In this document: positions 9,060 to 61,060 of the stretch, piece by piece | Layout of the letters: each line of letters begins with the position of its first letter | Numbering within the stretch: the stretch's first letter is position 1 | Source of the DNA: Prosopocoilus inquinatus | Lineage: Eukaryota > Arthropoda > Insecta > Coleoptera > Lucanidae | Direction: 5' to 3' | NCBI GenBank assembly: GCA_036172665.1 | Contig: CM069877.1 | Location: forward strand, 15,520,501-15,584,500 | Length of the DNA stretch: 64,000 nucleotides | Notes under the pieces: model-generated | The model's database searches: none | What the model was told of the DNA's origin: nothing | Seen by the model: the letters and a program-made list of their open reading frames with translations, nothing else | Position numbers and translations under genes: made by a program

Positions 9060-9994
9060 ACGAACGTCTTTGTTTTATTTTAATTTTAAAACAGCCTGCC
9101 CCCTCTTTCTAAAATTGCGATAAACTTTTCGATTTGATCGGCTTGACCAGAAGCGAATTTATTTATGTATATTTAAAAAAATCGATCTACTTTTGTTTTA
9201 TTTTTATTTTACACCCCCCATCCCACCCCACTTTTTAAATATTGTCAACTTTGAACACGTTGAATTTCTCAGTTTGGTAGGTTTTAAAGATGCCGCTTTG
9301 CGAATGAGAAGTTTTTGCATTAAAAGAACGATCTTCTTTTGTTTTATTTTTATCTTAAAAACCTTGCCCCCTCCGTCTTAGATGTACTCAATTATCATTA
9401 TTATGAATATTAAGTTTGACCAGCTGAACCAGAGAAGCTGTTTTATATCTCAGAGAAAAAAAGTAAAAAAGAAATTTATCGACTTTTGTTTTATTTTAAT
9501 TTTAAAAGTCTTGGCCAATTCATTTTAAATTTTCTTAACTTTAAATGCAACGAATTTCTCATCTTGACCAATTTTGAAGCGGATCACTTCACGAAGGACG
9601 CAGTTTTATATTTCCAAAAGAAAAATCGTTCGTCTTTTGTTTTATTGTTACTTTCAATACCCGGTCCCCTCCATCTTAAACTTCCCAATTTCAAAAACGA
9701 AATACTGAAATAGATTTTCCCATTTTGCTAATGTTCAGGAAAAGCATTTCGGGTGTGGTATGCAAAAAATCGGTTGACTTTTGTTTTATTTTTATTTTAA
9801 AAATGCCCCCTCCTGCATATCTCTCTTATTCTCTTCCTCTCTATCTATTGGAATGGTATCATATATGAATCAAGGGAGGGACTTCTAAAAAGAAAACAAA
9901 AGACCACTAAAAAATAGTTGGTTGCTTGTTTCATTTTTAAGAGTCCCGCCCCCTTCTAGTTCTCACTTTTGAATGCGTGTTGTCTTTTATTTTA

Positions 9995-10300
9995 TTAAAA
10001 AATTTCTTGCAAATCGTTTTTGATTGCAGTGAAAACCTCGAGCAGCCTCTGTACAGCTGTTTCAGCTGTTTGGGGCTTCGTCAGCAGAAACGTTGCTCAA
10101 TGCAATCAAAAACGATTTGCAACAAAATTTTTAAAACTTTCATTATGCTTTGATAGCAAGCATGGTCGCCTTGTATGGGGACTTATTAGGTAGCAAATCC
10201 GCTTCAATTTGTCTATCCTACTGCAATGTTATGTCAAAAAGCGATCGAAGGATGTCGTCGTTTTATCTGTTCATTTTTATTTTATTATTAACAAAGTCTT
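9995..10300. mobile_element. Hammerhead-ribozyme repeat, copy 1 (inverted arm plus direct tail)
   Basis: The left part is the - strand ribozyme half of the ~300-bp unit. It is joined at ~10105 to a + strand tail (AATCAAAAACGATTTGCAAC, then GCAAGCATGGTCGCCTTG, GCTTCAATTTGTCTATCCTA and AAAGCGATCGAAGGATGTCG). The same words in the same order occur in the copies at 25.8, 34.5 and 44.7 kb. The inverted-plus-direct layout is shared by four of the five copies. It sits inside the T-rich satellite. Confidence 0.8.
10038..10099 (-). ncRNA. Type I hammerhead ribozyme (stem II shortened)
   Basis: Read on the - strand: stem I (TTTCTG with CAGAGG, GAGC with GCTC across an internal loop), core CTGACGA, stem II, GAAA, palindromic stem III ACAGCTGT, and A at the cleavage position. 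Stem II has decayed to AGC/GCT because the loop side reads CCCAAACA. Cleavage is plausible but weaker than in the 34-kb copies. Activity is inferred only. Confidence 0.7.
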
Positions 10301-14259: not shown

Positions 14260-14316
14260 GTAGATACCTTACAAATTCTCTTAAAAATCACATTTTCATT
14301 TTGACAATATTTTAAG

Positions 14317-15690
14317 GTGTCGTCAGACCAAAAGTACCAGATTGATCAACATTTGGCTACAAACCTCCAGAAGGAGTCGGAGAAAAGATGTGTGTCTAAC
14401 TTTAAGCAGTCTTTTATTTCTTCAACAGCCAGTAACTCACAGGGCAGTGACACAGGAAATGAATTCTTTTTAGACTTGTGCAGTGCTATGGCAGAGTCAA
14501 ACATTCCTTGGCATAAACTTGAACAAGCAAGTTTTCGAACTTTTTTGGAAAAATATTGCAATCGTCATATTCCAAATGAATCGACTTTGCGGAAAAACTA
14601 TCTAAGTATATGCTACCAGCAACGGATGAAGAAAATAAGAGAGAAGCTTAGCGACAACAATATTTATATAGTAGTTGATGAAACGATAGATGCCTGCGGT
14701 CGTTATGTAGCAAATATGTTAGCAGGAGTATTAAGCAACACAGTTGCACCAATATCTTATTTGGTAAATAGTGCAGTTTTGGAAAAAACAAATCATTCAA
14801 CGATCGCACGTTTTATTAACGACAGCTTGACACTTTTATATGCACCTAATCAAGTTAAATCGGAAAATATATTACTAATGGTGTCTGATGCAGCAGCCTA
14901 CATGATAAAAGCAGGACAGGCTTTACAGGTGTTTTACCCAAATCTGATGCACTTCACTTGTATGGCTCACGCAATGAATAGGCTCGCTGAATTGGTGCGA
15001 CTAGAATACCCAACAGTAAATAAGTTGATCAATAACGGAAAAAAGGCGTTTCTTAAAGCCCCACTGCGTATACAACACTATAAAGAATTAGCTGCTGACC
15101 TGCCATTACCACCAGAACCAATAATTACGAGATGGGGTACGTGGCTTGAAGCAGCAAATTTTTACGCAGATAACTTTAAACAATTAAAGGAAATTTTCTT
15201 AGAATTGGATGATTCCAATTCAGCGGCTTTAGGAATTTGTAAGGAATGCATGTCGAACACAAACATCGGGAATCAATTAGCATTCATTAAAACTCATTTT
15301 TCGGTTTTAATATCCACCATTAAAAAGTTGGAATCATCCCAGACGGCTCTATTAGATTCTTTTGAAGTGGTCGATGATGCAATTGAAAGTGTAAAATCAA
15401 TTCCAGGGGAGATAGGAGAGAAGTTAATGGCAAAATTAGACAAGGTTCTATTACGTAATCCTGACTACAATAAAATGAGGAAAATCTGTTTAGTTTTAAA
15501 AGGTCAAAGTGAAGAGGATTTGGACATGGACCCCAAAGATGTAGCATCCATGAAATTTGCGCCCATTACTTCATGCGATGTCGAGCGTTCGTTTTCCTCT
15601 TATAAAAATATTTTGACAGACAGACGACAAAATTTTACCCCAAATAATTTAAATCAACTGTTGATTATATTTTGTAATCCTACTACTTAA
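14317..15690 (+). CDS. hAT transposase, exon 2 (catalytic and dimerisation regions)
   Basis: Begins VSSDQKYQIDQHLAT, which completes the finger after splicing (His in IDQHL). It then runs 457 residues without interruption. Numbered in exon 2, IVVDETIDACG (~118-128) holds the first catalytic Asp and MVSDAAAYM (~189) the second. CMAHAMNRLAE (~214) is the CxxH block. RWGTW (~260) is the conserved Arg-Trp motif. SCDVERSFSSYKNILTDRR near the C-terminus is the hAT dimerisation motif carrying the catalytic Glu. The layout matches the DUF659 plus hAT C-terminal class. The predicted full protein is 494 residues. All key residues are present, so it may be an active nuclear DNA transposase. Confidence 0.9.
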   Translation: MSSDQKYQIDQHLATNLQKESEKRCVSNFKQSFISSTASNSQGSDTGNEFFLDLCSAMAESNIPWHKLEQASFRTFLEKYCNRHIPNESTLRKNYLSICYQQRMKKIREKLSDNNIYIVVDETIDACGRYVANMLAGVLSNTVAPISYLVNSAVLEKTNHSTIARFINDSLTLLYAPNQVKSENILLMVSDAAAYMIKAGQALQVFYPNLMHFTCMAHAMNRLAELVRLEYPTVNKLINNGKKAFLKAPLRIQHYKELAADLPLPPEPIITRWGTWLEAANFYADNFKQLKEIFLELDDSNSAALGICKECMSNTNIGNQLAFIKTHFSVLISTIKKLESSQTALLDSFEVVDDAIESVKSIPGEIGEKLMAKLDKVLLRNPDYNKMRKICLVLKGQSEEDLDMDPKDVASMKFAPITSCDVERSFSSYKNILTDRRQNFTPNNLNQLLIIFCNPTT

Positions 15691-21970: not shown

Positions 21971-22159
21971 ATCAGAGCGTTTGTCTTTTGTTTGTGAGAT
22001 TTGTTGTTGTCTGTCTTTGCTTTTCGCGGCGCAAAGAATATTCTGCTTTCCTTTTCCGTTTTTCCTTTTTCAGCGATCGATTTTTTTTAGTTTGAGTGCT
22101 TTTTTTTGTCATAAATCGATATTTTCAGTTTCTAATTTTTTTTTCTTATTTATTGCTTG
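21971..22159. repeat. T-rich satellite-like sequence
   Basis: Repeats of words such as GCGATCGATTTTTTTTAG and TTGTCTTTTGTTTG place it in the same degenerate family as 9060-10720. Confidence 0.4.
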
Positions 22160-22280
22160 TGCAAGATGTTTTCATTTCCTTTAACAATGCTGACGAAGCC
22201 CCAAGCAGGGCTGAAACAGCTGTACAGAGGCGGCTCGGGATTTTCACTGCAATCAAAAAAGATTTGCAACAAATTTTTAT
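22160..22280 (+). mobile_element. Hammerhead-ribozyme repeat, copy 2 (single truncated unit)
   Basis: Only the ribozyme half survives: TGCTGACGAAGCCCC ... ACAGCTGTACAGAGG, then CACTGCAATCAAAAA and AGATTTGCAACAAATTTT. Both sides are T-rich satellite. This is the only copy without an inverted partner. Confidence 0.75.
22180..22240 (+). ncRNA. Hammerhead ribozyme, core intact, stem I damaged
   Basis: CTGACGA at 22190-22196, stem II AGCCC/GGGCT with loop CAAGCA, GAAA, ACAGCTGT, and A at the cleavage position are all intact. The 5' strand of stem I (ACAATG) pairs with CAGAGG at only the first two positions, so self-cleavage is doubtful. Confidence 0.55.
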
Positions 22281-23075
22281 CAATATTGTTCGGTCGTCTT
22301 TTGTTTTGTCTTGTTTAATTTACGTTTAGTTACTTTTTTTTTAATTTTAAGTAATTTTTTGGTTTAAATTTAAGCGGTCGCGTTTTGTTTTTGAAATTTG
22401 TTTTTGTTTTTTTTTTCAAAATTTTCCAAGAAGAGAATTCGATTTTTAATTTGAATTCGTTTGAGATTTCTTCTTTTTAATTAAAGCGATCGTCTTTTGT
22501 TTCTGAAATTTTTTAATTGTTTGTTGCTTGCGCAACGAATATTCTGTGTTGGTTTTTTCATTTTTTCGCAAGATCTGTCGATCGTCTTTTGTTTTTGCTA
22601 TCTTATTTTATTTAAAAAAATTTCCGATTTTTTTTCAATCTGCCTTTGTCGAATTCAGAGTTACGTTTTTTTTTTTATTTTGACTGATCGAGGATCAGGA
22701 TTACATAGTATCATAAAACTAAGTTTTATTTCTTGACTTATATTAACTCTGTTATTTTTCTCTATATTTCAGTTTTTTTCTTTTTTTGCGTCTATTATCT
22801 TTTTAGTTTATGTGTTATTTCTCTAAATGGCTAGTTTCAAACACTGTAACATTATTTTGTCATTGTCATTGTCGTTGTCTTGAAATAAATTTGATTCGAT
22901 CTTTTGTTGTTTAAGTTTAAGCGATCGCTTTTGTTTCTGGAATCTCTCGTTGTTTTTTCTTCAGATTTTCGAAAGAGAATCCTTCTACAGGTACTTCGGC
23001 TTTAAGCCGGGCGACCACTGTGGGCGGAGTTAAGCCACGCTAAGCGAAACTAAAGCCGGGCGATCTGTAGAGATG
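22281..23075. repeat. T-rich satellite-like sequence and a short GC-richer tail
   Basis: GCGATCGTCTTTTGTTTCTG and its variants recur near 22375, 22485, 22575 and 22920. The end (22990-23070) contains TTAAGCCGGGCGACC and AAAGCCGGGCGATC, which also pair with CGCCCGGCTTAAG near 25406. Confidence 0.45.
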
Positions 23076-24952
23076 TACAGGGTGGATTAATTTCGATGTC
23101 TCTTATGGGCATCTCCGTAACTATAACAGATAGAAAAAAACTAGTGGCCAAGTCTCGATCTCTTTTTTGGAGATTAAGTCAATAGCGTAAACAAAAATTG
23201 GCTATCTTCTTTTGTTTTCAAGTTATGGCCAAAAATTGACATTTTCGACTTTTCGTTTTTCGGTCATATCTCGTTTATTTTTAGAGATATTAGAAAACTG
23301 TTTGATCATTGTTAGGACACTTTTTGGAATAAAATTCAGTGGTGTAGTTGCTTTTTTAATATATGCTTAAATTTTCAAGTTATAACATAAAGTTATATTT
23401 TTTTTAAATAGAAATCATAGTAGGCAATGCCTTCATTAAATAGAGATTTTCTTTCTGTCTTCAAAAATATATACTTTGTTGGGTTTATTTCTTATAATTA
23501 ATAGGAAAAACTGTCATTTTTATTATTATCCTTGCGTAAATATCCTGGTCTCAGTAGGCTGAGTTCAATACGGAGCTGATTTTTTATTTTATTAAATTTT
23601 AACGAGCTTTCTAATATTTTCAAAGTTTTGGCTGCGTAAATAATTTCGTATTCGCGTTAATTTACAAATTTCCGTTTTATCGTTCTGATAAGAGTTCCTG
23701 TCCGACTTTCTATTGAAAATGAGTTTATCATTCAATTTATAGAAAAATTGTTTTCAATCTTTAAACAGTGAAAACTGCTCAAATACTCAACGTTTCACTA
23801 TCGGTTTATAGCTTCGTTAGAAAGAAACGTTGAACGTTCCTGTAATTTTCACATGTCTTTTTAAAATTGAAAACAATTTTTATACAATTTCCAACGGACA
23901 AGAAACGACTTCAATAAAAAATTTGTAATTGAAGTCGACTCTTGTTCGATGAAGTATGTGAGAGAAAATAGTTTTTAAACTTTAAAACGGACACTGTGAA
24001 ATCGCAAGAACACTCTACGTTTCGCTATCGCTTCATAGTTTCGTCAGGAGTGAAAAAATATAAATAAACAAATTGTCAAGAGAAGCGAAAAGATAACATG
24101 ATTTTACATTAAAAGACAAGCTGTTCGGATAAACATAAAGGTAATAATAACTAAATTAGAACTAAATTAAGATTTCTTTTTTTTGTTTCTCTTGAGTTAT
24201 ATTTTATTAAAAACACGAAAAACCAAAACAAACACACAAATAGTAAAATATAAACAAAATCGGACATGGATCAAACTAAATTTGCGTGCATTCATATTTA
24301 ATAAAAACAAAAAAGCTTTTGCCAGATCGGTCGCGATGGGTGCTATATTCCTCAAACGGAATTTTGTAAAATAAAGTGCATGTGAAATTTTTTAAGCGGC
24401 CAAAAACTGTCTAAAGGTTTGAAAGTTCGTTAATATTTAATAAAAACAAAAAAAAAATGTCGGCACTGCATTGAAGCCAGCCTACTGAGAGTAGGATACG
24501 CAAGGCTAATCATAAAAATGGCATTTTACCTATTAATTAACAGAAATAAACCCAACAAAGTATATATTTTTGAAAACAGAAAAAAAATCTCTATTTAATG
24601 AGGGCATTGCCTACTATGATTTCTATTTAAAAAATAAAACTTTTGTTATAACTTGAAAATTTAAGTAAATATTAAAAAAGCAACTACACCACTGAATTGT
24701 ACTCCAAAAAGTGTCCTAATAATGATCAAACAGTTTTTTAATATCTCTAGAAATAAACGAGATATGACCGAAAAACGAAAAGTCGGAAATGGCAATTTTT
24801 GCCTATAACTTGAAAACAAAAGAAGAAATTTTTGTTTACGCTATTGACTTAATCTCAAAAAAACAGATCGAGACTTGGCCACTAGTTTTTTTCTATCTGT
24901 TATAGTTACGAAGATGCCCATAAGAGACATCGAAATTAATCCACCCTGTACA
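23076..24952. mobile_element. 1.9-kb palindromic TA-flanked element
   Basis: The ends are CAGGGTGGATTAATTTCGAT and ATCGAAATTAATCCACCCTG, each flanked by TA. The arms pair for ~700 bp (for example AAGTGTCCTAATAATGATCA against TGATCATTGTTAGGACACTT). The central ~500 bp are not paired and contain further short inverted words (AACGTTTCACTATCGGTTTA / ACGTTTCGCTATCGCTTCAT). No transposase is present. Confidence 0.8.
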
Positions 24953-25780
24953 GATAAACTCAGAATAAACTAAGTATAACTTCTTAAAGGCGTTTTTCAA
25001 AACTTTATTCGTAGATCAAGTGTATACGTAGTAACGTAAACAGTTTATACTTTTCATGAAGTCATTTGTCAACAAAAATTTATCGTTTCATAAAATTATT
25101 TATCATTTCAGAAACCGGGCATAAGTTTTGCTCCAATATAATCTTATCGAAATGTTCCTTAGGTCCAGTTTTACAAATGGGGCTCAACGTTGAGCTGAGG
25201 TTTAAACCCTTAGCAACAATTATTTCAACAATTGTTGTGAAGGGTTTAAGCTTCGGCTCAAAGTTAAACCGTCGTTGTAAAACTGGGCCTTAGCCAAACT
25301 TTGCCTGCTTAGCTTTTAGTTGCCGTATATACATAATATTGCGCAGCAACTAATTTTCAAAGATCTTAGTTTCGTTCAGTTTAGCTGAGCTTCGTTTGCA
25401 GTGGCCGCCCGGCTTAAGAGTGTTCGCATTACAACGACTCTGAGTTTAAATAAATTCGATACATTTTAGGCGAGACTGTAATTTCTTAAATTGTAAATTC
25501 TTTAATAAATAAAAAGGGAAAATTCGTATAGTCTTTTTATTTTTCTACACAAAAAGTGTTTGTCAAATGTGTATTTGCAAAACCCGACGAGTTTCGACCA
25601 ATTGGTCGTCTTCACGGATTACTGTAATAGAAATTACGTAACTAGAATTAAATTTAAAATTAAATGACTGGTTACTCTCAATAAAATTGGAGACGTGTAA
25701 AAACAATACGACAAACACATTAAACACAGGTCAATTGTCTCACAGAGCAAAATTGACAATAAATCATTATTATTATTAAA
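24953..25780. other. Stretch with one MITE and a ribozyme-like remnant
   Basis: Bases 25163-25291 form a palindromic MITE (GGTCCAGTTTTACAAATGGG, then GCTCAACGTTGAGC, mirrored by TTGTAAAACTGGGCCTTAG). A related one lies at 47797. The - strand hammerhead-like remnant is at 25583-25620. The rest is AT-rich. Confidence 0.5.
25583..25620 (-). ncRNA. Mutated hammerhead-like motif
   Basis: On the - strand: GTGAAGA, one extra C, a perfect GACC-AATT-GGTC hairpin, GAAAC, then TCGTC. The layout equals the one-insertion hammerheads, but core C3 is G. C3 pairs with G8 in the active fold, so it should be inactive. Chance is possible. Confidence 0.3.
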
Positions 25781-25818
25781 AAAAATTGTTGCAAATCGTT
25801 TTTGATTGCAGTGAAAAA

Positions 25819-25885
25819 CTCGAGCAGCCTCTGTATAGCTGTTTCAGCCCTGCTTGGGGCTTCTTCAGCAGAGACGTAGCTCGAG
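25819..25885 (-). ncRNA. Type I hammerhead ribozyme, stem III mismatch
   Basis: On the - strand: CTCGAG/CTCGAG outer stem I, CTCTG/CAGAG inner stem I, CTGAAGA, AGCCC-CAAGCA-GGGCT, GAAA. It is intact except that stem III reads ACAGCTAT instead of ACAGCTGT, giving a C/A mismatch next to the A-U pair. Cleavage base A is present. Confidence 0.65.
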
Positions 25886-25953
25886 ATTTTCACTGCAAAC
25901 CAAAAACAACTTGACCAATTTATTGGCATTCGTTTTTGGTTTGCAGGGAAAAT

Positions 25954-26013
25954 GTTGAGCTACATCTCTGCTGAAGTAGCCCCAAGTAGGGCCGAAACAG
26001 CTGTATAGAGGTC
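25954..26013 (+). ncRNA. Hammerhead remnant (core A9 to U)
   Basis: CTGAAGT replaces CTGAAGA, stem II is GCCC-CAAGTA-GGGC, then CGAAA, ACAGCTGT and A. The A9 change should abolish activity. Confidence 0.5.
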
Positions 26014-26135
26014 GCCTTGCATGAGGTAGCTTATTATGTAGCAAACCCGCTTCAATTTGTTATTCTACTGGAATGTCAGGTCAAAAAGCGATCGTAGGAT
26101 GTCGCTGTTTTATCTATTCATTATTATTATTATTA

Positions 26136-31996: not shown

Positions 31997-32600
31997 GACA
32001 AAGAACGAGAAAGAGAACGATTTGGCTTCGCCGTTTAAAAAAAAATAAGTGCAATTTAAAGCGAATATTATTTACTTACTATTGGAATGCCGTTAGAACG
32101 AGTTTTATTTAATGGGGAAACGGTGTTGCATTTGCGACGGAACGCACGTGGCGACATTGACTTGATGAATGTCTTTTTTTTAATTAAAGTTTTTATTTCT
32201 CCTGAAACCTATTAAATTTTTTCTTCGGTTTGAGTTCCATCTCGTAATTTGCTAATTCGGTTCAGAAACCCAAATTAATAAATTTTCACACCAGAACAAA
32301 TAATATCTAAATTTAAGGGTCCGAATGCACGGGCCACTTTTACGCACGCGATCGCGTGTAAAACAGGAGTCTCTCTTTTCTACATAGATTACTTTTTTAC
32401 AAAATATAATATAAAATAATATTCGCCAAAATATCATGTTCGAATTTATTTCATAATTTCCAATTTTGAAACTGATCAGTTTTCAACTTTAATAATACAA
32501 GCAACAAATACTTTATTTTTATAAAAAAAAAACTAATTTAATGCTTCGAATATATGAGCCAGTTTAGTTAAGACAATCAACGTCAAAAATATTCGCCTTG
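31997..32600. other. AT-rich stretch with no gene
   Basis: Nothing is recognised except a short CGCGATCGCGTG palindrome near 32346. Confidence 0.35.
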
Positions 32601-33974
32601 TAGAGGTTTTGAAGTAATTAATTTTTTGTTTACTTGTTTTCTCAAATTATTTCTTTTTTTCTTTTGCAAAAAGAATATTACGATCGACTTCAGTTTTTCC
32701 TTTTTTTCTCCGTCATAAAATTACGATCGTCATTTGTCCCCCCCCCCTCTCTTTACCTCTCTCTCTCTCTCTCCTCTCTCTATCTCTCTTCCTTTCAAAG
32801 CTATCGTTTTGCTTTTGTTGTTTCCATTCAGATTACGTTTTCCCAATAAAGAAGCCAAAAAGTTCTCTTTTTTGTTTTTGTAATTAATGGTCTTTCTTCG
32901 TTATTTTTTTTAAATTTAAAACTGCTGTTTTTTTTTCACTCTCTTAATTCCCTTGATTTCAATCATTAAAATCTCAAAAACCAGGAATTTTATTATTATT
33001 TTCTAAGATAATCATCGGTTTTGCAAATTTTTATGAAAACGGTTAATTAATTACACGCAAGTTAAGGGAGTGTATACACGAGTTACTTTTAGCAATCAAC
33101 GTCAAATTGTTTTATTTTGTAGTGGTTTTGAATATTTTCTCAAATTATTTCATTTTTTTTAAGTTAAAATGTGATTGTTCTCTGTTTTTCCTTTATTTTA
33201 TCTTTCAGTTGTCGTTTCCTTCCTGGCTAAATTTCCATTCTGATTACGTTTTTCTTTTTTTTTGTTTCTTCTCCAAGCCAAATAATCAAAAATTTCCTTT
33301 TTTTTTTCTCTTCTGTATTTGTCACTTTTTTCATTTCTTTTTTCCTACTTTCTGTTGAAGTGATCTATTTTTTTTTCAAAGTTAAATAATCGAAATTTTC
33401 TGTGCTTCTCTTTCGCGAAAAATTACAGTCACCATTTGTTTTTTTGACGTTCTTTAGAATTTTTTTTTCGTAAATGTAATGATTGGTCTCTCTTGTTTTT
33501 TAAATGTTTTGTGAATTCGTAATATTTATCTTTTAAAGATATTTTAGCATGACAATATTGTCATTTGTTTTTCTTAGTTTGGTGGGTAATTTTTGTTTTT
33601 TTTCATTCGAATTTGTTCTTCTTTTTTGATGGTCAAAAAACGTACTTGTTTTCCTTTTTCTTTTTTAGTTTTTTTCATTTGCATTTTGGTTACTTGTTTT
33701 CTTTTTTTTTCTGTTAAGCGATCTATTTTTTTTCGAAGTTAAATAATCAAATTATCTGTGCTTCTCTCTATATCTCTCTCTCTCGTGATTAATAATAGTC
33801 GTTATTTGTTTTTTCTTTTACTTTCTTTAGAGTATTTTTTGATTCGTAAATATCAAGATCGTCTTTCTCTGTTTTTTTTTTTTATATTTTGTAAATTTCG
33901 TATTTATTTTTTGGAGATATTTTAAAACTAATTTCTTGTTTTTTTTTTACAATGTTATTTATTATATTTTAGAA
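32601..33974. repeat. Pyrimidine-rich degenerate satellite (left block)
   Basis: The + strand is strongly T/C-rich. Recurrent words include TTACGATCGTCATTTGT, AATAAAGAAGCCAAAAAGTT, TTTTGTTTTTTC, and a CT run at ~32744-32790. The order of words is repeated after the ribozyme element (34700-35130), so the block was probably once continuous. Short Phe-rich ORFs are artefacts. Confidence 0.55.
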
Positions 33975-34014
33975 AAAAAATTGTGCAAATCGTTTTTGAT
34001 TGCAGTGAGAACCT

Positions 34015-34079
34015 CGAGCAGCCTCTGGACAGCTGTTTCAGCCCTGCTTGGGGCTTCTTCAGCAGAAACGTAGCTCGAC
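34015..34079 (-). ncRNA. Intact type I hammerhead ribozyme
   Basis: Mirror copy of 34359-34423, with every core base and helix the same. On the - strand the core CTGAAGA, stem II AGCCC/GGGCT, GAAA, ACAGCTGT and cleavage C are present. It would cut transcripts antisense to HNF4. Confidence 0.88.
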
Positions 34080-34358
34080 ATTCCCACTGCAGACCAAAAA
34101 CGACTTGCCCAATTTATTCGCAAATGCGATGTAAGAATGATGAACATATAAAATAGCGACATCTTACTATCGCTTTTTGACCTAACATTGCAGTAGGATA
34201 GACAAATTGAAGCGGGATTTGCTCCTAATGAGTCCCCCATGCAAGGTCATGTTAGGTCAAAAAGCGATAGTAAGATGTCGCTATTTTATATGTTCATCAT
34301 TCTTACATCGCATTTGCGAATAAATTGGGCAAGTCGTTTTTGGTCTGCAGTGGGAATG

Positions 34359-34423
34359 TCGAGCTACGTTTCTGCTGAAGAAGCCCCAAGCAGGGCTGAA
34401 ACAGCTGTCCAGAGGCTGCTCGA
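34359..34423 (+). ncRNA. Intact type I hammerhead ribozyme
   Basis: Helix map: stem Ib TCGAGC (34359-34364) with GCTCGA (34418-34423); internal loop TACG/CT; stem Ia TTTCTG (34369-34374) with CAGAGG (34410-34415, two G-U pairs). The core is CTGAAGA (34375-34381). Stem II is AGCCC (34382-34386) with GGGCT (34393-34397), loop CAAGCA. GAA is at 34398-34400. Stem III is the palindrome ACAGCTGT (34401-34408), and C17 is at 34409. Predicted cleavage is between 34409 and 34410. The stem I internal loop facing the stem II loop is the arrangement used for tertiary contacts in natural type I hammerheads. Stem III can close only weakly within one molecule but perfectly between two, as reported for small Penelope-associated hammerheads. 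Activity is predicted, not shown. Confidence 0.9.
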
Positions 34424-34612
34424 GGTTCTCACTGCAATCAAAAACGATTTGCACAATTTTTTTCTAAAATCTTTCATTATGCTTTGACAGCAAGCATGGC
34501 CGCCTTGCATGGGGGACTCATTAGGAGCAAATCCCGCTTCAATTTGTCTATCCTACTGCAATGTTAGGTCAAAAAGCGATAGTAAGATGTCGCTATTTTA
34601 TATGTTCGTTAT

Positions 34613-35130
34613 TTATTATATTATTTTCTTTTCTTTCGCAGGGAATTTTTGCTTGTTTTTCCATTTGAGTTTGGGTTTCTTTCCTGATTTATTTTTTTGC
34701 TTGTTTTAAGTTTCTTTCACAAAAACACTATTACGATCGTCTTTTGTTTTTCCTTTTTTTTGTCATAAAATTACGATCGTCATTTGTTTCTACCCCCCTC
34801 TCTCTTTTTTCCTCTCTCTCGCTCTCTTCCTTTCAAAGCTATCGTTTTTCTTTTGTTGTTTCCAATCAGATTACGTTTTCCCAATAAAGAAGCCAAAAAG
34901 TTATTTTTTTTTTGTTTACGTAATTAGTGGTCTTTCTTTGTTCGTTCTTCCTGTTTTTTATTTTGTTTCTGTTTACAATATTCGTCATTTGTTTTATTTC
35001 TTTTACTTTCGCAGGGAATTTGTGTTTTTTTTTCTTCCGTTTGGGTTTGGCTTTCTTTTGTGATCTATTTTCTGCTTATTTTAAGTTCAAAATATTTCCA
35101 AAATTTAAAGCATTATTGTGATATCCGTGT
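34613..35130. repeat. Pyrimidine-rich degenerate satellite (right block)
   Basis: It repeats the word order of 32640-32960 (TTACGATCGTCATTTGT, CT-rich run near 34797, TTTCAAAGCTATCGTTTT, AATAAAGAAGCCAAAAAGTT). That supports a duplicated ~600-bp block. No gene is present. Confidence 0.55.
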
Positions 35131-35424
35131 GTATTTCGGTTGTATCTCTCGATCATCATTGCTTTTCATGTTTTCCATGAAGCTTCCATGATTTTGTTTT
35201 TCATTTGGTTTTTACCCGATTCCTAGGATGAATCGTTTTTACCAGACATCCCAGGAATTGAGTTACTAGATGTCGCAGGAATCGTTTTTTTACCAGATCC
35301 CAAAAAGCGGCAGCCCTTGCTGGTAAGAAGAGTCATCTTGAGAGCAATCGGGGGAAAAAAATTAGGTCGAGGCCAATAAAGACGAAGTGGAATGAATTGA
35401 GACTTCTAAATGGGGGAAAGGGGC
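35131..35424. other. Short degenerate direct repeats
   Basis: Words like GATGAATCGTTTTTACCAGA and AGGAATCGTTTTTTTACCAG recur at ~35227 and ~35278. Nothing else is recognised. Confidence 0.35.
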
Positions 35425-36075
35425 AAAGCTGTAGCTCCTAGCTTAGCGCTAGGGTCCCTAGATTTGATTGACATTTAACATGTTGGAGAGGGTTCGGAAG
35501 CACAACGTCAAATCCTCCATTTTGCCAAGCTCCGTATCGTTTACGAAATAGCAATACTATGATTTATTCTTTCTAACCCACGGGAAAATCATCATCGTCA
35601 AGAGGTCAGCCAATTGTAAAATCTGAATAACGAAATGGCGTTGTACTTTCGAACCTTATCCGACATGTTAAAGGTGCTTTCATTCGCTCACAAAATCGTG
35701 TTTAAAACGTGTTTTGATTCAAAAGCAGACAATGGGCGCGTTCAGCGGATGCGTTGCTTACTCAGCAGTCGTTTGTGATTGGCTATTACCTTCATGTGAG
35801 CCAATCACAATCGATTGCTGAGTAAGCAACTTAGCCGCTGAACGCGCCCATTCTTTTCTTTGAATTTCTCTATTTTTAAAACTTGTTTGGATTGAATTTT
35901 GGTTATTTACAAATGAAGTGTCAATCAAAAATTCAAGTCCGGTGTTTTGTTGCAACAACTACGAAATTCAGATCAAAACTTTTCGAAACACGATTCAAAC
36001 TTTTGAGCGAAAGAAAACACCTTAAATGTCAATTACATCTAGGGACCTTACTTAGCGCTAGTTGCTAGGTTTCTT
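35425..36075. mobile_element. Inverted-repeat element with a nested MITE
   Basis: The outer ends are CTTAGCGCTAGGGTCCCTAG and CTAGGGACCTTACTTAGCGC. Nested inside, 35729-35852 is a near-perfect palindrome with termini AATGGGCGCGTTCAGCGG and CCGCTGAACGCGCCCATT, and inner arms TTGCTTACTCAGCAGTCG and CGATTGCTGAGTAAGCAA. No ORF is present. Confidence 0.75.
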
Positions 36076-43700: not shown

Positions 43701-44621
43701 AAGTATCCGTTAGATGTTTCCAAAACTATGTACACAACGCCCACAAATCAATGCCTATTGAATGAAACAAAATATCTTGAAAATCTAAACCCATTATTGA
43801 AAAACATGTTTTAACCATTTATTTCGAAAAGCAATTTAACTTTGAAAGTACGCTCCTTAAATGTACCCCTAAACGAAAGTACTATGACGCTCAACTGAAA
43901 TGATACTCCTACATGCGTACATTCAGCGTAAGGGCTACGAAACAGTCTAATGGTAAGATTTAAGTTGAGCGACGTAGTACATAAAGGTATTGAACAGCTG
44001 ATTGACAAGGGCCCCAAATATAGCCGCCCCCCTCCGCTTGACGTGCAAGTGCACAGTCGTGCGTCCGCCTCAAATTTAGATCAGTATTATTATTCGAATT
44101 TGTGTATTTATAACGCGTAACACACTATAAATACCTTTCGCTTCAAAATATTTGGACAATCTGTTACGCACAGGCAAAAGAATTAAGCCCCCTCCCAAAA
44201 AAAAAAAAAACGTCGTCAGCTTTTGGGCCGCATATTCTGAATCTGATTTTTTTTTTTTGGAGCCACACCTTCGCTTCTTTTCTTGCCAAAATGTTTACGG
44301 TTTATGCAAACACGTTACAGGAACGAATTTATTGCTTCACTTCTTCTTCATACATATACATACATCGTTGGGCCCGTAATTAACGGAAGGTGTTATCTTA
44401 TTTGCTTAAATTTAGAATGGATGGCGTCGCTTTGCGAAAATAAAGTCTCGTGCTTTTTACGCAGCGAGTTTTTTTTAAGCGTAAACTTTTTCGTTTTATA
44501 ATTTTTATTTTTCTATGGAAAGAAAATAATTGCGACAAGATTTAGAAAACGACAGACAAACATTCACTGAGAACTATAAACTATTTGGTATAAAAAATAA
44601 TAAAATTAATGAAAAGTTTAA
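40791..44621. other. Long gene-free intronic stretch
   Basis: I see no RNA or protein gene here. Minor items: a threefold TTTTTTTTCAAATCACGAC run at ~43626-43672; a stretch near 43885-43990 inverted relative to ~37785-37860 (both with CTTACGCTGAATG or its complement); short ATTTAATTATAATTTATTAT palindromes at 41748; and A-runs near 44195. The rest is AT-rich. The small Lys-rich frame at 41389-41661 lacks protein-like features. Confidence 0.4.
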
Positions 44622-44779
44622 GTAGCAACATCCTGCGATCACTTTTTGTCCCGACATTGCATTAGGGTTGACAAATTGAAGCCAGTTTGCTACATAATAA
44701 GTCGTCTCATACAAGCCGGCCACGCGTACTGTCAAGACATAATGAAAGTTTTAAAAAATTTGTTGCAAATAGTGCAGTG

Positions 44780-44846
44780 GATCCCTACGCTTTTGCTGAC
44801 AAGGGTCCAAATAGTGCTGAAACAGCTGTACAGAGGAAGCTTGAGG
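44780..44846 (+). ncRNA. Hammerhead remnant (core G8 to A)
   Basis: CTGACAA replaces CTGANGA, and stem II (GGGTCC ... TAGTGC) no longer pairs. GAAA, ACAGCTGT, A and CAGAGG remain. Inactive by inspection. Confidence 0.5.
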
Positions 44847-45079
44847 GACCCAGTTCAATCAAAAACGACTTGCAACAATTTTTTTTAAATTTTCATTATG
44901 CTTTAACAGCACGCATGACCGGCCACGTTGTAAGGGATGACTTGTTATGTAGCAAACTGGCTTCAATATTTCAATCCTAACGTAATGTTAGATTAACAAG
45001 CGATCGCAGGATGTCGCTACTTAAGCTTTTCATTATTTTTACATCGCATGTGCGAATTTCCTCTTGAAACGGAAATCTG

Positions 45080-45143
45080 GAGCTACACTTCTACAAACGA
45101 GGTCCCAAATAGAGCTGAAACAGCTGTACAGAGGATGCTCGAA
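45080..45143 (+). ncRNA. Hammerhead remnant (5' core lost)
   Basis: GAGCTACACTTCTACAAACG replaces the stem I and CTGANGA segment. AGCTGAAACAGCTGTACAGA, GGATGCTCGA and the downstream CACTGCAATCAAAAACGATT are conserved. Inactive by inspection. Confidence 0.45.
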
Positions 45144-45185
45144 AGATTCACTGCAATCAAAAACGATTTGCAACAAAATTTAATA

Positions 45186-45344
45186 CTATTAATAGTAATA
45201 ATAAAATATAATACTAAAAAAATAAAAAAATATTCTTCTTACATCTTCAATAAAAATAAAAAAGAACTCAACTTGAAGTAGATTTAGAAGATGAGGTCTT
45301 GGAGTTGACTTGTGTTTTTGGATTTGAAAAACACTCTCTAATTG
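45186..45344. other. AT-rich junction sequence
   Basis: A-rich sequence lies between the ribozyme repeat and the giant inverted repeat. No gene is present. Confidence 0.4.
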
Positions 45345-47635
45345 AGAGCTGAGAGGTGGACACTAGTTATGTAACGTGCGTCCATCGTCACTAATAGAAA
45401 ACTTTAGACAACTAAAATAACCTCAAGGCAAACTATGCGTGTATTTAGAATGTCCGGCGGTTCTAAATTACGTTGTAGCCACTTATTATACTAATACGTG
45501 ACATAAAGGACATCCTAGAATTGCTTCGTTTCATGGGTTCAGGACGTTCAACAGGTTTTAGGTCTCTAGCCGTCTCTGTTATTTTCTATTTAACACTTGC
45601 TTTCTATTCAGATTTAACACTATCATCTCTATAAAAAATTAGCGGAAGAATTGATTCTGAATTTTATTTTACGTCAGTGAAGCAAGTTCGAATTGCTTTG
45701 CTATTTGGTTTTTCTTTATTTAAGCTTATTTTCATTGCTCTTTTCGTTTTTTCCTTTCTAATCCATACGCCTCCCTGTATTCTTTTTTTTAAATCTTGCC
45801 TGCTCTTGATTATCGTTAAGTCAGCTTCAAGCTTTATTTAAGCTTAATTTCGTTGGTTTTTTCGTCGTTTCATTTCTAATTTATTCGCCTTCCTGCATTC
45901 TTTTTTTAACCTTGTCTCCTCTTGATTAACGTTAAGGCAGCTTCAAGCAGCTTTTGGGAATGTAAGAAACTAAATATCTTTACAAAAATGTATAGAATTT
46001 TTATAAATGAGGTGGAGGTGGAATTGTCCTGCCTCTTGTTACTGAATTGTTAGTTTTCGATAACCTACTGGACGTAGCAATTATTTGAGCGCCTTGTTTT
46101 TGTTTATTTTCTTGCAGTGTTTTAAAATTAATCCTAAATAATAATTTTAGAAATTTGGAGATTTTAGCGAAGACTAACGTGAATAATTAAATAGTTTTTA
46201 GGTGACGAGCAAATGTGAAAAACACATTAAAATCCAAATCGCAACTGAACCAAGGTAAAAAAGATGGAGATAAAGCAAATAAGAGGAGTGCTGCATGTAG
46301 TAATAGGCTAGGTGTGGATAGAAAATTGAGATGCTAAAATAATTAAAAAAAAATAAAGAAGATATCAAGAATATAAATTAAAAAGAAAGGTACTGAAAAA
46401 ATGGGGCAAAGAAAAGTCAATGCCAAAGGAAGCGGACTCAACTCAGATCAATCTATTTCGACCTAAACTATAAGAAAAAAACAAGAAACTTAATTAAAAC
46501 AAAACTTAGAAAAATTAAAACTTAATAAATCAAAACTCAAATGAATTAAGACCAACCCAACTCAGCTCATCCTAATTCTATCTAATCCGTCAATGAAAAA
46601 CTTAGAAACAAAAGAATAACACTAAAAAAGATTAATTCTAGTTGAAAGAAGAAAATACCAAACACAAAATAAAAAGAAAAGCTGAAGGAGATGTTAAAAA
46701 TGGGAAAAGTTGAAGAGAAAAAGAAAAAAAGAGAAATGAAAAATGAAAAAAAAAAAGAAATCAGAACATTCTCTGTTGGGGGGAGAGAGGGGGAACGGCA
46801 GGATCTATTTGGAAAAAAAATGATACTAAATGAAAAATAAAAACAAAAGATGGAGGATGGGTTAGAAAAGGAAAAATCAACAGGCCTCTAAACAATTTAG
46901 AGAAAACAGTGGTAGAAGTACATAGAAAGAAAAAGAATCAGAAATTTCTCTGTTGGGGGTGTGAGCGGGAAAGAAGTTGAAAAGGAAGGTACCACATACA
47001 AAATGAAAAGAAAGGAAATGGTGAAGATGTAAGAAAAGGAAAAAAAGAAAGAAACGGATTGAAGAAAAAATGACGAGAGAGAAACAGAAAATCAGAAGTT
47101 TCTCTGCTTGGGTCCCGGCGGGCAGAGGAAGCTCTGATTGACAGAAGACGTCAAATACAAAATAAAAAGAAATGAAAAAGTGAAGACGTGTAAACAGTTT
47201 GGAGAGAAAAGAATGGCAAAGGCACATAGAAATAAAAATTAAAAATGAATGAAGTCGGAATTCTTTTGAGAGTCTTTGGAAGAAGAAATACAAATATAAA
47301 ATTATGTCGTGGATAGAATCGAAAGGAAAAAAAATGGAAAAAAGAGAAAATAACTTCGCCAAAAATTAATAAATACATGCTGAGAGAAACAAAATTGAAA
47401 TGTATGAAGCAATGATGTTTAAAAACATAAAAATTAAAAAGTGGGAAGAGTTTATATATATATTGAGGAAGAAATGGAACAAAAAAATCAGAACCAATTC
47501 GAAAAATTATAGAGAAATACTTTGGGAAGGACGAAATAACAAGTAAACGAAGAGAAGAGACAAATTGCACTTTGATCACATTAAATGCAGAAATTTTTCT
47601 TTTTACTGTCCGTAGTGGTGTAAAGTGACGGTTAT
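45345..47635. repeat. Left arm of a giant inverted repeat
   Basis: It begins GAGAGCTGAGAGGTGGACAC and includes AGTTATGTAACGTGCGTCCA, TTAGAATGTCCGGCGGTTCT and AGGACATCCTAGAATTGCTT, all found reverse-complemented in 54930-56728. This arm is purine-rich on + from ~46200. It contains a tandem ~115-bp duplication (45719-45955) and an extra ~480 bp (45970-46445) absent from the other arm. Three copies of a CAGAAATTTCTCTGTTGGGG-type motif lie near 46765, 46940 and 47093. Phe-rich ORFs on the - strand are compositional. Confidence 0.75.
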
Positions 47636-48146
47636 TTAAAATAGTGACGTCATTTTGGTCATTTAAGTATAAATGGCGGTCATTCTGTAGTTATCATCAA
47701 CCGTTTAATTCTACAAGACAGACGCACATTAAGTGAAATACAAATACAAATTTTTATAAAACTACATTTAAAACAAAACAACAAAAGTAATACTCTTAGG
47801 TCCAGTTGCACCAAACTCTTAAGCTAAGCTTAAATTTAAGTACTGCTTATAATGTGATATGTGAGGTTACGTAACTCACATTCTAAACGGCGCTTTAAGT
47901 TAAGCTTGGTTTAAGTGTTTGGTGTAATTGGCCCTTAAGCCCGGTTTAGCTTTCAGTTTCGCTTTATTCCCCTGGTCACAATTATTGTAAGGACAAGGAA
48001 TAAAACGGACCTTAAATTGAAAAATTGCCCCGTAAATAGTTCCATAAATTGTTGCAGTTTACAGATAAGGCAAATAACATACAAGTATACCGACAACTGA
48101 AATTAAAAGCTTTTAGCAAAATAAAGTTAATTTTACATGTTTACAC
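47636..48146. mobile_element. Spacer with a palindromic MITE (47797-47937)
   Basis: TAGGTCCAGTTGCACCAAAC, then TCTTAAGCTAAGCTTAA, is mirrored by TTAAGTTAAGCTTGGTTTAA and TTTGGTGTAATTGGCCCTTA. It belongs to the class seen at 25163. The sequence before it (47640-47700: TAGTGACGTCATTTTGGTCA) recurs inverted near 54930-54990 and is part of the giant repeat. Confidence 0.6.
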
Positions 48147-52870: not shown

Positions 52871-54929
52871 GATTAAAAAAAATGAATGTTGCCAAACGAG
52901 GCGGGCATGAGCGAATGCATTACTCTGTTATCAAAATTGTGTCTAGTGTTTTTCCCCTATTTAAATGCGTTGTTTATGATTAAATTATATTGTCATTCTA
53001 TGTATGACAATGAATACTTTTTTTTATATATGTAGATGGTTCTATTTTGGAAACTTTAATTGTTTCATTCCTCTATATCGATTGAGTAAAAAATTAATGG
53101 GAATTATTTGCTTCTTGGTGCTTCGCGGGTTTGATTAGACCTTTCGTCAAAAGGTATTTCGTATTTCACAGGGTTCTACCTGTCCTATGTTTGTACCTTC
53201 CTTATCAACGATCTGCTTACTTTGCCGTTGAGACTGGCCTAAGCTTTAATAATTTTATCTCGCGAATTCAGTAAACGTGCAACTGTGCTGTAGTTTTTTT
53301 TTTACTCTTTAAGATAAGTGGTTAGTTAACAGCCAAAAAATTGTTGCCCGCTGCCATAAAACAACTATTATTAGGAATTATTAAAAAAAATGTCGAGTGT
53401 TAGCTCTGATAAGATATGGGAGCCTGGTATCGCCCTCGAAATCAAACAAACACCTTTTAGATACCAGATCACTTCCAGCGACAACTTTCCATTACATCAA
53501 CGGTCGTTCGCATTACATTACAATACATATTTTTTTTGCTCGGTATCATCATCTTATCGGTCTTGTGTATAGTTGAAATGAAACTGAAGGACGTACCAGT
53601 GCACCAGAGAGCACCGTGCACAGGCGTTTACACCAACAATCATTTAACGAACCCGCCAAAATGATGGGAAGATGAAGCAGCATATTTTATTAAATGATAC
53701 AACTTGTAAACCAATTTATAAATTTGCTTTACACTTTACATAGTAGCTCAAGATAGAGGAAGAAATACATATACAGGTATCCACCGAGTGCCGCGGTCTT
53801 CTCTACCGTCTAGAGTTAAGACAAGATAGAAAATAAATTCAAATGAGCTGAGGTGTAACTCAGTCAGCTCTATTTTCTAAAATTATTTTTGGCTCTACAC
53901 GGGATGTTCAGTAACTGAGAGCTGTACCAAAGTTATATTTTTTTAAATGGAACACCCAGTATATTTTTACATATTTCGAAAGTACGCATGGCGAATAGGT
54001 AATAACCAAAAATTTCGGAAGTTTTATTTAAGAGTTTTTAAGATATTAATGATAGTGTTTAAAAAATTGCTCTACTTTGAGTTCTTGTAGTTTGATTATT
54101 TATTTACATTTCATGGTGAATTTTTTGTAGGTAGACAATACAGTATCTCATCTACATAAATTTTACAACAGCTTCAATCTATTACTTATTATGTCTACAG
54201 TGTGTTGAGTTTTGAAAAAGTTAATTTTTCTGAAAATTTTCAAATGTATATATCTAAACACTGCCTTAACGAGCTTTCATAAACTGCCAAATGTTTTTGT
54301 CCAAACTGAACAAATCGCGAAACAGCAATTACTCATTTTTTTAATAACAATATTGACTTTTTTTTAGCTTTTTCGACCGGTCCTTCTGTTTTATTTTGTT
54401 GATAAATTAACAAATATTAGTTAATTTAATAAATATATTAGAAAATAACAAAATAATGTACAAATTAAGAATAATAAGTATTAAATTAGAGAATGACAGA
54501 AAACAATGAACAAATTAACCGTTGCCTCCCCCTACAATATGTTTACGTCAAAGGAACGTAAACAAATTAAAGAAACATAAAATCACTCAACTAGCCCTAC
54601 AACAATAAAAACAAAATTAATTTTTATTGCCACTGAATTTACAATCTGCATAAGACGTATTATTCCGTAACCCCCAAGCTTTAATATAACTCCCGCCAAA
54701 TTATTTATTTCTTTAATAATCTTCGTTATTTTAGAACAAACCAGGTTGTGATATACCGTACTGTATTTCTAAATCAATTACCTGCCAAATGACACCAAAC
54801 TAAACCCAGGTTGCCATTAAAAAAGAATTCAAGATGGCTGCCTCTGTCAAACACTAGTCGCACAAAACAAAGAAAACTCTTATCAAAATATGGACATGAA
54901 GAATCAAACGGTTGATGATGACTACAGAA

Positions 54930-56728
54930 TGAGCGTCATAAACTTAAATGACAAAAATGACGTTACGATTTTAAATATCCGTCATTTTACATCACTACGG
55001 ACAGTTAAAAGAGAAATTTCTTCATTTAATATGATAAAAGTGCAATTTGTCTCTTCTCTTCCTTTACTTGTTATTTCGACCTTCTCAAATTATTTCTCTA
55101 TAATTTTTTGATTTGGTCCTGATTTTTTTGTTTCATTTCTTCCTCAATATTTTCGAGGTCTTCCCGTTCCTTTTTTTCAAAGACCCTCTCCACTTTTTAA
55201 TTTTTATGTTTTTAAATGTCATTGCTTCATACATTACAAATTTTGTTTCTCGCAGCATGTCTTTACAATTTTTTTGCGAAATTATTTTCACTTTCTTCCA
55301 TTTTTTCCTCCTTTCGAATCCTATACACACGACATAATTTTCTGTTTGTATTTCTTCTTCCAAAGACTCTCAAAAGAATTTCGACTTCATTCATTTTTAA
55401 TTTATATTTCTATGTGCCTTTGCCATTCTTTTCTTTCCAAATTGTTTACACGTTTTCACTTTTTCATTTTTTTATTTTGTATTTGACGTCTTCTGTGAAT
55501 CAGAGCTTCCTCTGCCCGCCGGGCCCCAAGCAGTGAAACTTCTGATTTTCTGTTTCTCTCTCGTCATTTTTTCTCCAATTTGTTTCGTTTTTTTTTTCCT
55601 TTTCTTACATCTTGACCAATTCCTTTCTTTTCATTTTGTGTGTGGTATCTTCCTTTTCAACTTCTTCCCTGTCCCGTCCCCAACAGAGAAATTTTACTTT
55701 TACCACTGTTTTCTCCAAATTGTTTAGACGCAGTTGATTTTTCCTTTTCTAACCTGTCCTCCACCTTCTTTTCTTTTTATTTTTCATTTAGTATCATATT
55801 TTTCCAAATAGATCCGGTCCTTCCTCCTTCTTCCCCCCAACAGAGAATGTTCTGATTTCTTGTTTTTCCCTGTGTAACTACCATTTTTTCTTTTTCTGTT
55901 CAACTCTTCCCATTTTTAACATCTTCTTCATCTTCTCTTTGTATTTTGTGTTTGGTATCTTCTTCTTTCAACTAGAATTAATTTTTTTAGTGTTATTCTT
56001 TTGTTTCTAAGTTTTTCATTGACGGATTAGATAGAGTTAGGACGAGCTGAGTTGAATTGGTCTTAATTCCATTTGAGTTTCGATTTTTTAAGTTTTAATT
56101 TTTGTTTTAATTAAGTTTTTTCGTTTTTTTTCTTATAGTTTAGGTCAAAATAGATTGAGTAGTGTAGTTTCTTACATACCTAAAAGCAGCTTGAAGCTGC
56201 CTTAACGATAATCAAGAGGAGCCAAGGTTAAAAAAAGAATGCAGGAAGGCGAATAAATGAATGAAAGGACGAAAAAAGCAATGAAAATAAGCTTAAATAA
56301 AGAAAAACCAAATAAGAAAGGCAAGGAGAGCTCCACATAGAAAATATTTTACAATTTTTTTGGCAATTGGCTGACGTAAAATAAAATTCAAAATCAATTC
56401 TTCCGCTAATTTTTTATAGAGATGATAGTGTTAAATCCAAATAGAAAGCAAGCGACAGTCAGAAAATAATAAAATAGAAAATAACAGAGACGACTAGAGG
56501 CCTAAAACCTGCTGAACGTCCTAAACCCATGAAACGAAGCGAAGCAATTCTAGGATGTCCTTTATGTCACGTATTAGTATAATAAGTGGCTACAACGTAA
56601 TTTAGAACCGCCGGACATTCTAAATACACGCATAGTTTGCCTTGAGGTTATTTTAGTTGTCTAAAGTTTTCTATTAGTGACTATGGACGCACGTTACATA
56701 ACTAGTTTCTAGCTCTCAGCTCTCAAAC
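54930..56728. repeat. Right arm of the giant inverted repeat
   Basis: It mirrors 45345-47635 with ends TGGACGCACGTTACATAACT and TAGCTCTCAGCTCTC. Pyrimidine-rich on +. It lacks the ~480-bp insert and one of the two tandem 115-bp units of the left arm. The three CCCCAACAGAGAAATTTT-type motifs are present (55515, 55677, 55836). Phe-rich ORFs are compositional. Confidence 0.75.
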
Positions 56729-59775: not shown

Positions 59776-61060
59776 TCAATCTAAAATCTAATTCTTTTCG
59801 TTGATTTACGACCAGTCCGATGCTACCCGTGACTACGTTTGCCTTTCTCCCGAACGAAACTGTCTGTTTTTCGTAACACTAAGCGACTCCAAACCTAACT
59901 GGTAGAATTTGACCCATGTTTTGTCCATTTTTATGAGCGATGGCGAAGAACAAGATTTGCACCGGAAGATCACGTCTCACTGCAAACTATTTGGATTAGC
60001 CTTGTTAGATATTATAAGATGGGATAAACGGTTTTTTTCCATAATAGAACCCCTCACGTTTCTTTTTTGAATTACATCCGAGCTATTTTTGAAAGATCCT
60101 GGGCATTGCAAACTCCGATCAAAGTGTTTTCTTCAAAATAACATCTTCACATTTTTGGACTGAGTTTATCAGATCGTTTGGTTCCTTTTCCGACAAAATT
60201 TCTCGTTTTCTTTGAATCACTTTAGAATTATTTTTGATAGATCTTGGATATTGTAAACCAAGATACACGTCTTGGCATCTTTGGACCGCAACAAACCCGA
60301 TTTTGATAGATCTTGGATGTCAAAGCGATCCAAAACCCTTATTTTTACCTTCTTTCTTCATAACTGCTTCGTCCGTGTAGTACCCACAGGAAATTCCTTT
60401 TGGATTCTTCAACGTCGATTTTGGATTGTTCCAAACCCAACTGACGTAGAAATCATTATATCTTTTGGTTTTGGTTATCCAATTCAAAATATCCCTCTTT
60501 TGGCTTTTAATCTAAGTTTTTGTTGAGTTGTTCACCAAGTCTTCTCTCAAATCCACTTTTGGTAAACCTTGGATGTTATATCAAGCTTACACACGTCTTC
60601 CTTGTCAGGTCTTATCTACAACCTTTCAGCTTGAACCCTTACTCTTCAATTCCTGTTTCCCGTTTTCCTTTTGACGTCTTCTTTGTCAGGTCTTATCTTC
60701 AAACTTTCAGCTTGAACTCTTACTTTTCAATTCCTGTTTCCCGTTTTCCTTTTGAGCTAAAATTTCGTGCTTTTGTTTTTTGATTTCTTACTTGATAAGC
60801 GTTTCCTAAGGTGGGTGCTGTTCAGTTACAGTTGGGATGGCTTGCTCTCTACCTGTTTTGCGGGTGGCGAATCTCCCCTTTTCCAGATCTTCCCAAAACC
60901 CCGGAAGTGTGTAGATTTTCTGTAAAATGCAAAAAGGGAAAGAAGGCTTGCTTGATTGGTTGGTTGAAACTAATTTATGTATAATTTAGGTAATCAAACT
61001 AAAATAGTAAAGGAGACTATGGTTTAAGAGATAATTGAAATTAATCTTTAGATCTTTATA
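59776..61060 (+). repeat. Loose CTTGGAT/TTTTGATAG repeats and an 81-bp tandem duplication
   Basis: TTTTTGATAGATCTTGGATR recurs near 60069, 60231 and 60300 in a degenerate ~100-bp periodicity. At 60594-60674 and 60675-60756 an 81-bp unit is duplicated nearly exactly (CTTCNTTGTCAGGTCTTATC ... TTCCCGTTTTCCTTTTGA). From ~60790 the sequence is unique and AT-rich. Confidence 0.6.

Follow-up and report, generated by a model that had tools for sequence, protein, structure and literature searches.

The window, i.e. the whole 64-kb stretch of DNA analysed here, contains at 34 kb a single retroelement insertion that spans 33954–34622 inclusive of the two 15-bp copies of its target-site duplication (TSD). 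Its limits had been predicted as 33975..34612; the feature is real, but the insertion itself runs from 33969 to 34607, between the TSD copies. It is made up of two arms facing away from each other (head-to-head), which are named A or B after their outer ends (Table 1). The unit of the family is 312 nt with a GC content of 0.433, and is numbered from 34249 (unit position 1) with a period of 312. One inverted pair (33974–34188 and 34249–34463) comprises 215 nt with 100 % complementarity. A second pair (34136–34246 and 34503–34613) reaches 98 %, both differences being located at its right-hand end, within the TSD copy. Across the 277 unit positions that they share, the arms do not differ at all, and all 13 differences from the family consensus are common to both (13/13). 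The near-perfect inverted arms of the original prediction are thus confirmed, as is their recent formation, to which the identity of the arms and the intact TSD both point.

A head-to-tail repeat with a 312-bp period had also been described. The period is genuine, however only 53 nt recur (96 % alike), of which 47 are element sequence; thus, there is no second ribozyme head-to-tail at 34 kb. The longest stop-to-stop frame overlapping the insertion is 96 codons and no long ORF is present, in agreement with the non-coding nature proposed for the element.

Table 1. Coordinates of the 34-kb insertion, its parts and the other family loci in the window
Feature	Position	Strand	Remarks
Left TSD, GTTATTTATTATATT	33954..33968	.	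Exact 15-bp match to 34608–34622
Right TSD, copy of GTTATTTATTATATT	34608..34622	.	Exact 15-bp match to 33954–33968
A-ended arm, 34-kb insertion	33969..34246	-	Unit 255 round to 219; outer end is site A
Filler at arm junction, 34-kb insertion	34247..34248	.	2 nt
B-ended arm, 34-kb insertion	34249..34607	+	359 nt, i.e. one unit plus 47 nt; outer end is site B
Type I hammerhead core, left arm	34025..34065	-	Strict descriptor; modelled cut 34028/34027, mirror of the + site
Type I hammerhead core, right arm	34372..34412	+	Strict descriptor; modelled cut 34409/34410
Unit 310–5 cluster in the 34-kb copy	34558–34560 and 34249–34253		
10-kb locus	9985..10287	A arm -, B arm +	A arm from 10098, B arm from 10097; TSD TTTTATTTTATTA; ribozyme helix II damaged
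22-kb locus	22186..22281	+	One arm only, A-ended, with 5′ truncation at unit 125; TSD not found
26-kb locus	25764..26132	A arm -, B arm +	Two-armed; internal deletion in B arm; TSD TCATTATTATTATTA
44-kb locus	44596..45207	B arm -, A arm +	Two-armed, older; TSD AATAATAAAAT

Several other features are apparent in the window. A 461-aa ORF at 14305–15690 contains DUF659, presumably a relative of hAT-type transposases. Among the best 120 matches listed, its product shows 81 % identity with an unnamed protein and 49 % with beetle and aphid proteins; the latter are its best relatives that carry a name, and they make an arthropod host likely. An inverted repeat at 35722–35861, with two 63-nt arms (87 % complementary) and a 14-nt spacer, is unmatched in the hammerhead-family searches of the window. 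A tandem repeat of 160 bp (2.9 copies, 93 % matches) is located at 62139–62599, and other tandem arrays at 60593–60755 and 45714–45948. Strand-asymmetric T-rich or A-rich tracts occupy 22001–24000, 32001–36000, 46001–48000 and 54001–56000, with an AT skew of about -0.28 to +0.29.

The hammerhead ribozyme

Judged from its sequence and pairing, the 34-kb element carries a canonical type I hammerhead core with three helices, which reads CTG-CTGAAGA-(A)GCCC-CAAGCA-GGGC(U)-GAAA-CAGCTGT-C-CAG in each arm. Core position 7 is A and the first helix II pair is A-U; position 7 is a variable position of the hammerhead core. Helix III consists of two pairs and an AGCU loop, and the whole of ACAGCUGU is palindromic. 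A strict descriptor that includes all three helices returned four cores in 304 kb, namely those of both 34-kb arms, L010 and L011, and no core in three shuffled copies. The two intact cores of the original prediction, one per arm, are both among these matches, and the cut site that it placed at 34409/34410 coincides with the modelled one. Other genomic copies preserving the core, whose absence was one of the two conditions set for refuting the original prediction, are present, at L010 and L011 by the strict descriptor and at one L026 locus as read by eye. The first 304 kb contain 21 loci, and the strict descriptor recovers an intact core at three of these.

A search of 111 nt with Rfam Hammerhead_1 reached 23.8 bits, short of the gathering score of 34, and a search of the whole 64-kb window at Rfam gathering scores gave no match. 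The miRNA and snoRNA matches of a permissive Rfam search all fall under their gathering scores and are consistent with the palindrome. Helix II and III pairs each hold in 13/16 to 19/19 of the copies covering them (pair counts on copies omit W34B, which is identical to W34A), and helix I continues past the core as a long stem that is mostly conserved across copies. The circular 312-nt fold is strongly self-paired (-114.7 versus a mean of -75.5 for 200 shuffles, z = -7.9). When folded in silico, an alternative pairing of helix III is the more stable one by 6 kcal/mol (-51.9 versus -45.9), and this preference of the free fold counts against easy cleavage.

At 63437–63472 lies a degenerate stretch (CTGATGAGGACTC...GGTCCGAAACAGGTGCAG) that resembles a hammerhead but belongs to another family; it is a weak nhmmer match (E 0.039) with no Rfam hammerhead match. 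Within 304 kb, the 500-nt surroundings of this stretch match only themselves, 36 nt in the L025 hammerhead and 20 nt of L023.

Family members and their outer ends

The family was sampled in the window and in 28 evenly spaced 10-kb stretches of the same genome, unselected for the element, of which 20 are from a 75.7-Mb contig and 8 from a 72.4-Mb contig (344 kb in total). It is abundant and dispersed, with 23 loci in 344 kb (~67 per Mb) and at least one locus in 13 of the 28 samples. Four further loci lie in the 64-kb window, all of which had been missed by the original prediction. Tabulated arms are 80–97 % identical to the consensus. Exact-pattern scans of bacterial/archaeal and viral contigs, neither set being expected to contain animal DNA, gave no matches.

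Seventeen of the 23 loci are two-armed, four are A-only (22 kb, L002, L014 and L010c) and one is B-only (L025a, with a 16-bp TSD); L007, a B arm with a 13-nt remnant of a second arm as read by eye, is counted separately. L014 and L010c are too degenerate for the arm table and the TSD test, and were assigned as A-only by eye. L021 and L023b were assigned as two-armed, not single-arm, on reading their sequence, and at the first L026 locus the short B arm was likewise read by eye, the profile search having not reported it. The inverted layout prevails in the family (17/23 loci) and is not peculiar to the 34-kb copy. The retrozyme-like tandem unit that had been proposed is not upheld: the sole locus among 23 with two hammerhead copies head-to-tail is that at 44 kb, in its A arm, and both copies are degenerate. 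A tandem satellite is rejected on the same count. A SINE is also rejected, as the consensus has no match to Pol III A- and B-box patterns and contains several internal T runs.

Outer ends are of two types. A-type ends (17 arms; L003 is cut by the sample edge) are located at unit 201–227, the U-rich foot of the long helix I, and B-type ends (17 arms) at unit 41–53, directly after a small hairpin, such that sites A and B are ~143 nt apart on the unit. An A-type and a B-type arm are joined head-to-head in 17/17 two-armed loci, with no A/A and no B/B locus. The Penelope-like layout recognized at 34 kb in the original prediction is supported. The count is 15/15 without L003 and L021, the latter having the weakest B arm (28 nt, 82 % to consensus). 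If ends were independent with equal odds, 17 mixed pairs out of 17 would arise by chance at 2^-17, or ~8 in a million. Given that lone A arms were detected, A/A loci should have been detectable. The A/B rule was predicted in advance for the last four samples; two loci were found, both in one sample (L026), one by profile search and one partly by eye, and both conform. Arm limits in the table of arms derive from profile search and reading by eye, with an uncertainty of several bases where degenerate arms end. In an unbounded profile search two hits continue past the end sites, the B arm of L012 as far as unit 388 (position 76 of the following unit) and the A arm of L025 as far as 301; both are read as alignment spill.

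Target sites, junctions and template RNA

Of 18 loci, 9 carry an exact TSD of at least 11 bp, a match length that none of 306 mismatched left/right flank pairs reaches; with the threshold lowered to 10 bp, the counts are 10 of 18 loci and 3 of 306 pairs. The test comprises the 18 loci with both flanks and excludes L014, L010c, L003 (sample edge) and both L026 loci; by eye, one L026 locus has an exact 14-bp TSD and the other a TSD of 12 bp with one mismatch. Flank matches at the other eight tested loci, which include L007 and both tested A-only loci (22 kb and L002), are at most 8 bp and inside the control range. TSDs are AT-rich and of variable length, 10–16 bp in clear cases. An alternative control with AT-matched random positions, less clean than mismatched flanks, gave at least 13 bp in 19 of 1500.

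Internal junctions were compared at 15 loci and all are different. An overlap of at least 2 nt is seen at 6/15 loci (17 % expected by chance), a mild enrichment of microhomology, and a filler of 1–9 nt at 6/15. Inner (5′) arm starts are scattered, as in 5′ truncation, with the exception of 7 of the 38 starts, which fall in an 8-nt window, unit 310–5, at GCAATGTC (P ~0.008 for any window, given uniform starts). This cluster possibly marks an RNA 5′ end/transcription start, or a strong reverse-transcription stop.

Among the 19 tabulated A arms, there is no start in the interval from the cut site (unit 161/162) to site A. All 19 cross the cut site, suggesting that their templates were uncleaved or re-ligated. 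A self-cleaved linear monomer as template is rejected, since A arms would then start at unit 162 and 0/19 start in 162–222, a count that is limited in that an isolated A arm of less than ~60 nt might escape detection. Arms exceed one unit at 34 kb, 44 kb and L026, for which a multimeric or circular template is needed. Of the two-armed loci tabulated (15), eight have overlapping arms, with 33–277 unit positions in common, and the other seven share no position; overlapping arms require either two RNA molecules or strand displacement. At 44 kb, 13 differences from the consensus are shared, out of 30 in the A arm and 27 in the B arm. At L010b, L011, L012, L023a, 10 kb and 26 kb, other arms of the family are equally close or closer than the partner arm. 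From these comparisons, it is only at 34 kb and 44 kb that a common template for both arms is supported.

Proposed two-strand priming and its alternatives

The element resembles metazoan retrozymes by its unit and ribozyme, and Penelope-like elements by its insertion anatomy; on sequence features it is assigned to neither family. Metazoan non-LTR retrozymes, as described by Cervera and de la Pena 2020 (PMC7229834), likewise have a low-GC non-coding unit of ~170–400 nt with strong self-pairing, a type I hammerhead with a short helix III and tetraloop, and TSDs of more than 4 bp. They are described as head-to-tail dimers to large multimers, in contrast to the head-to-head layout with two fixed ends found here at 17/23 loci, and the word ‘inverted’ is absent from the main text of that paper. 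Penelope-like elements with pseudo-LTRs, as described in PMC3846280 and PMC11167929, share adjacent head-to-head inverted repeats, an optional one-sided tail, short TSDs, AT-rich cleavage and a hammerhead near the reverse-transcription start sites. Penelope-like elements have an ORF for a reverse transcriptase and GIY-YIG endonuclease, whereas no long ORF is present here, and the extra length between ends is described as a tail of 30–40 bp, compared with ~143 nt on the unit here. Set beside the Penelope traits of two RNA start sites and an AT-rich target, what is observed here in the sequence is fixed arm ends and AT-rich TSDs. Compared with the minimal Penelope hammerheads reviewed in PMC7761336, the element also has a fuller helix III. 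Plant LTR retrozymes (PMC4918200) are similar as non-autonomous retroelements with hammerheads, but, according to PMC7229834, their hammerheads are of type III and they have LTRs and TSDs of 4 bp.

For the mobilisation of animal retrozymes, Penelope-like elements were put forward as a strong candidate (PMC7229834). A purified Penelope-like enzyme is described as cleaving and extending both target strands with a preference for AT-rich DNA, as starting inside the RNA at two sites, and as a predicted dimer (PMC11167929). According to the same source, it inserts RNA in vitro whether or not the hammerhead works, which the A arms crossing the cut site match. Rotifer Penelope copies are described with adjacent inverted terminal repeats, mostly head-to-head, one of which may carry a 31-bp tail, and with TSDs of 8–10 bp; their head-to-head repeats were attributed by the authors to self-priming on an antisense template (PMC3846280). 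As understood here, self-priming would give like ends, and the A/B rule thus favours two separate primings, one per strand. Snap-back of a single cDNA is rejected in the same way, as it predicts the same outer end on both arms, which is never seen.

That the majority of sampled copies consist of outward-facing arm pairs with two different fixed ends suggests that the copying enzyme writes into both target strands. The A/B rule in combination with the published properties of Penelope enzymes would point to a Penelope-type helper. It is judged rather probable, with appreciable room for doubt, that the family is a non-autonomous retrozyme-like element mobilised by a reverse transcriptase of Penelope type acting in trans, with priming on both target strands and a separate internal RNA site for each. 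The putative helper, a Penelope-type reverse transcriptase/endonuclease, would nick AT-rich DNA in a staggered manner. One target strand would prime, through its 3′ end, at the internal site A of the RNA and the opposite strand at site B, with both RNA sites perhaps held by an enzyme dimer. Both cDNA copies would extend 5′-ward and stop at variable points, and the free cDNA ends would be joined via an overlap of a few bases or filler, producing head-to-head arms. The role of the hammerhead would be to trim or recycle transcripts of several units, the inserted RNA being uncleaved there or re-ligated.

Counting against the two-strand model are the 9 of 18 tested loci without a TSD of at least 11 bp, among them both tested A-only loci, as well as the overlapping arms (8/15), at six of which the partner arm is not the closest relative, the merely mild enrichment of junction microhomology and the two profile hits past sites A and B. 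In the published in vitro Penelope-like system, start sites are described as alike on both strands and 30–40 bp apart (PMC11167929), in comparison with ~143 nt here. A further proposition, that the inversion is the normal product of obligate two-strand target-primed joining from sites A and B, unlike one-strand priming or accidental twin priming, and that a reverse-transcriptase dimer copies a single ribozyme-bearing RNA with both start sites on it, is put forward tentatively, with the balance leaning somewhat against it.

Having the same outer-end pair at every two-armed locus would also be expected if the A-to-B composite were itself a master element copied whole, with the internal differences due to deletions that occurred afterwards in an unstable palindrome. 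Palindromes readily lose central sequence, and at six of the eight loci with overlapping arms the partner arms are not closest relatives. However, no internal junction recurs among 15 loci, and there are single-arm loci of both kinds, A-only (22 kb, L002, L014 and L010c) and B-only (L025a, with its 16-bp TSD), although the two tested A-only loci are without a TSD and may be remnants. The shared private differences (13/13 at 34 kb and 13 at 44 kb) would additionally need gene conversion, and a master composite is considered unlikely. It is also improbable that the family is a classical metazoan retrozyme, whose tandem transcript self-cleaves and circularises, with the circle copied by a LINE or Penelope enzyme and the inversions incidental. 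The 312-nt unit (GC 0.433) with its strong self-pairing (z = -7.9), type I core, lack of a long ORF and TSDs of more than 4 bp all suit such an element, as do the over-unit arms at 34 kb, 44 kb and L026, which require a circular or multimeric template; but a head-to-tail hammerhead pair occurs at just 1/23 loci, and an inverted A/B layout in 17/23 is not incidental.

Twin priming during target-primed reverse transcription by an ordinary LINE would account for five loci at which the arms share no unit position (L003, L016, L021, L022 and L023b), the B arms of those five starting at unit 310–22, as if one RNA began there. TSD lengths such as these also suit LINEs. Twin priming is, however, an occasional accident in which the inverted start is not fixed, whereas both arms have fixed end sites in 17/17 two-armed loci (the L003 A end being outside the sample) and arms overlap by 33–277 positions at 8/15; it is therefore judged an unlikely source of the family. 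Long inverted repeats between direct repeats are a hallmark that would be shared with a palindromic DNA transposon or foldback MITE carrying a chance hammerhead-like stem. Such an origin is exceedingly improbable given that TSD length varies (10–16 bp in clear cases), that outer ends A and B are different sequences, that 5′ truncation points are scattered, and that the full three-helix core is absent from shuffles.

The best reading is that the element works like a Penelope-mobilised retrozyme. As a high-copy family in which two-armed copies always pair different fixed ends, it provides genomic evidence linking a retrozyme-like RNA to two-strand priming. The question at stake is which enzyme moves animal retrozymes, and this may be approached through genome-wide counts of end types and junctions.
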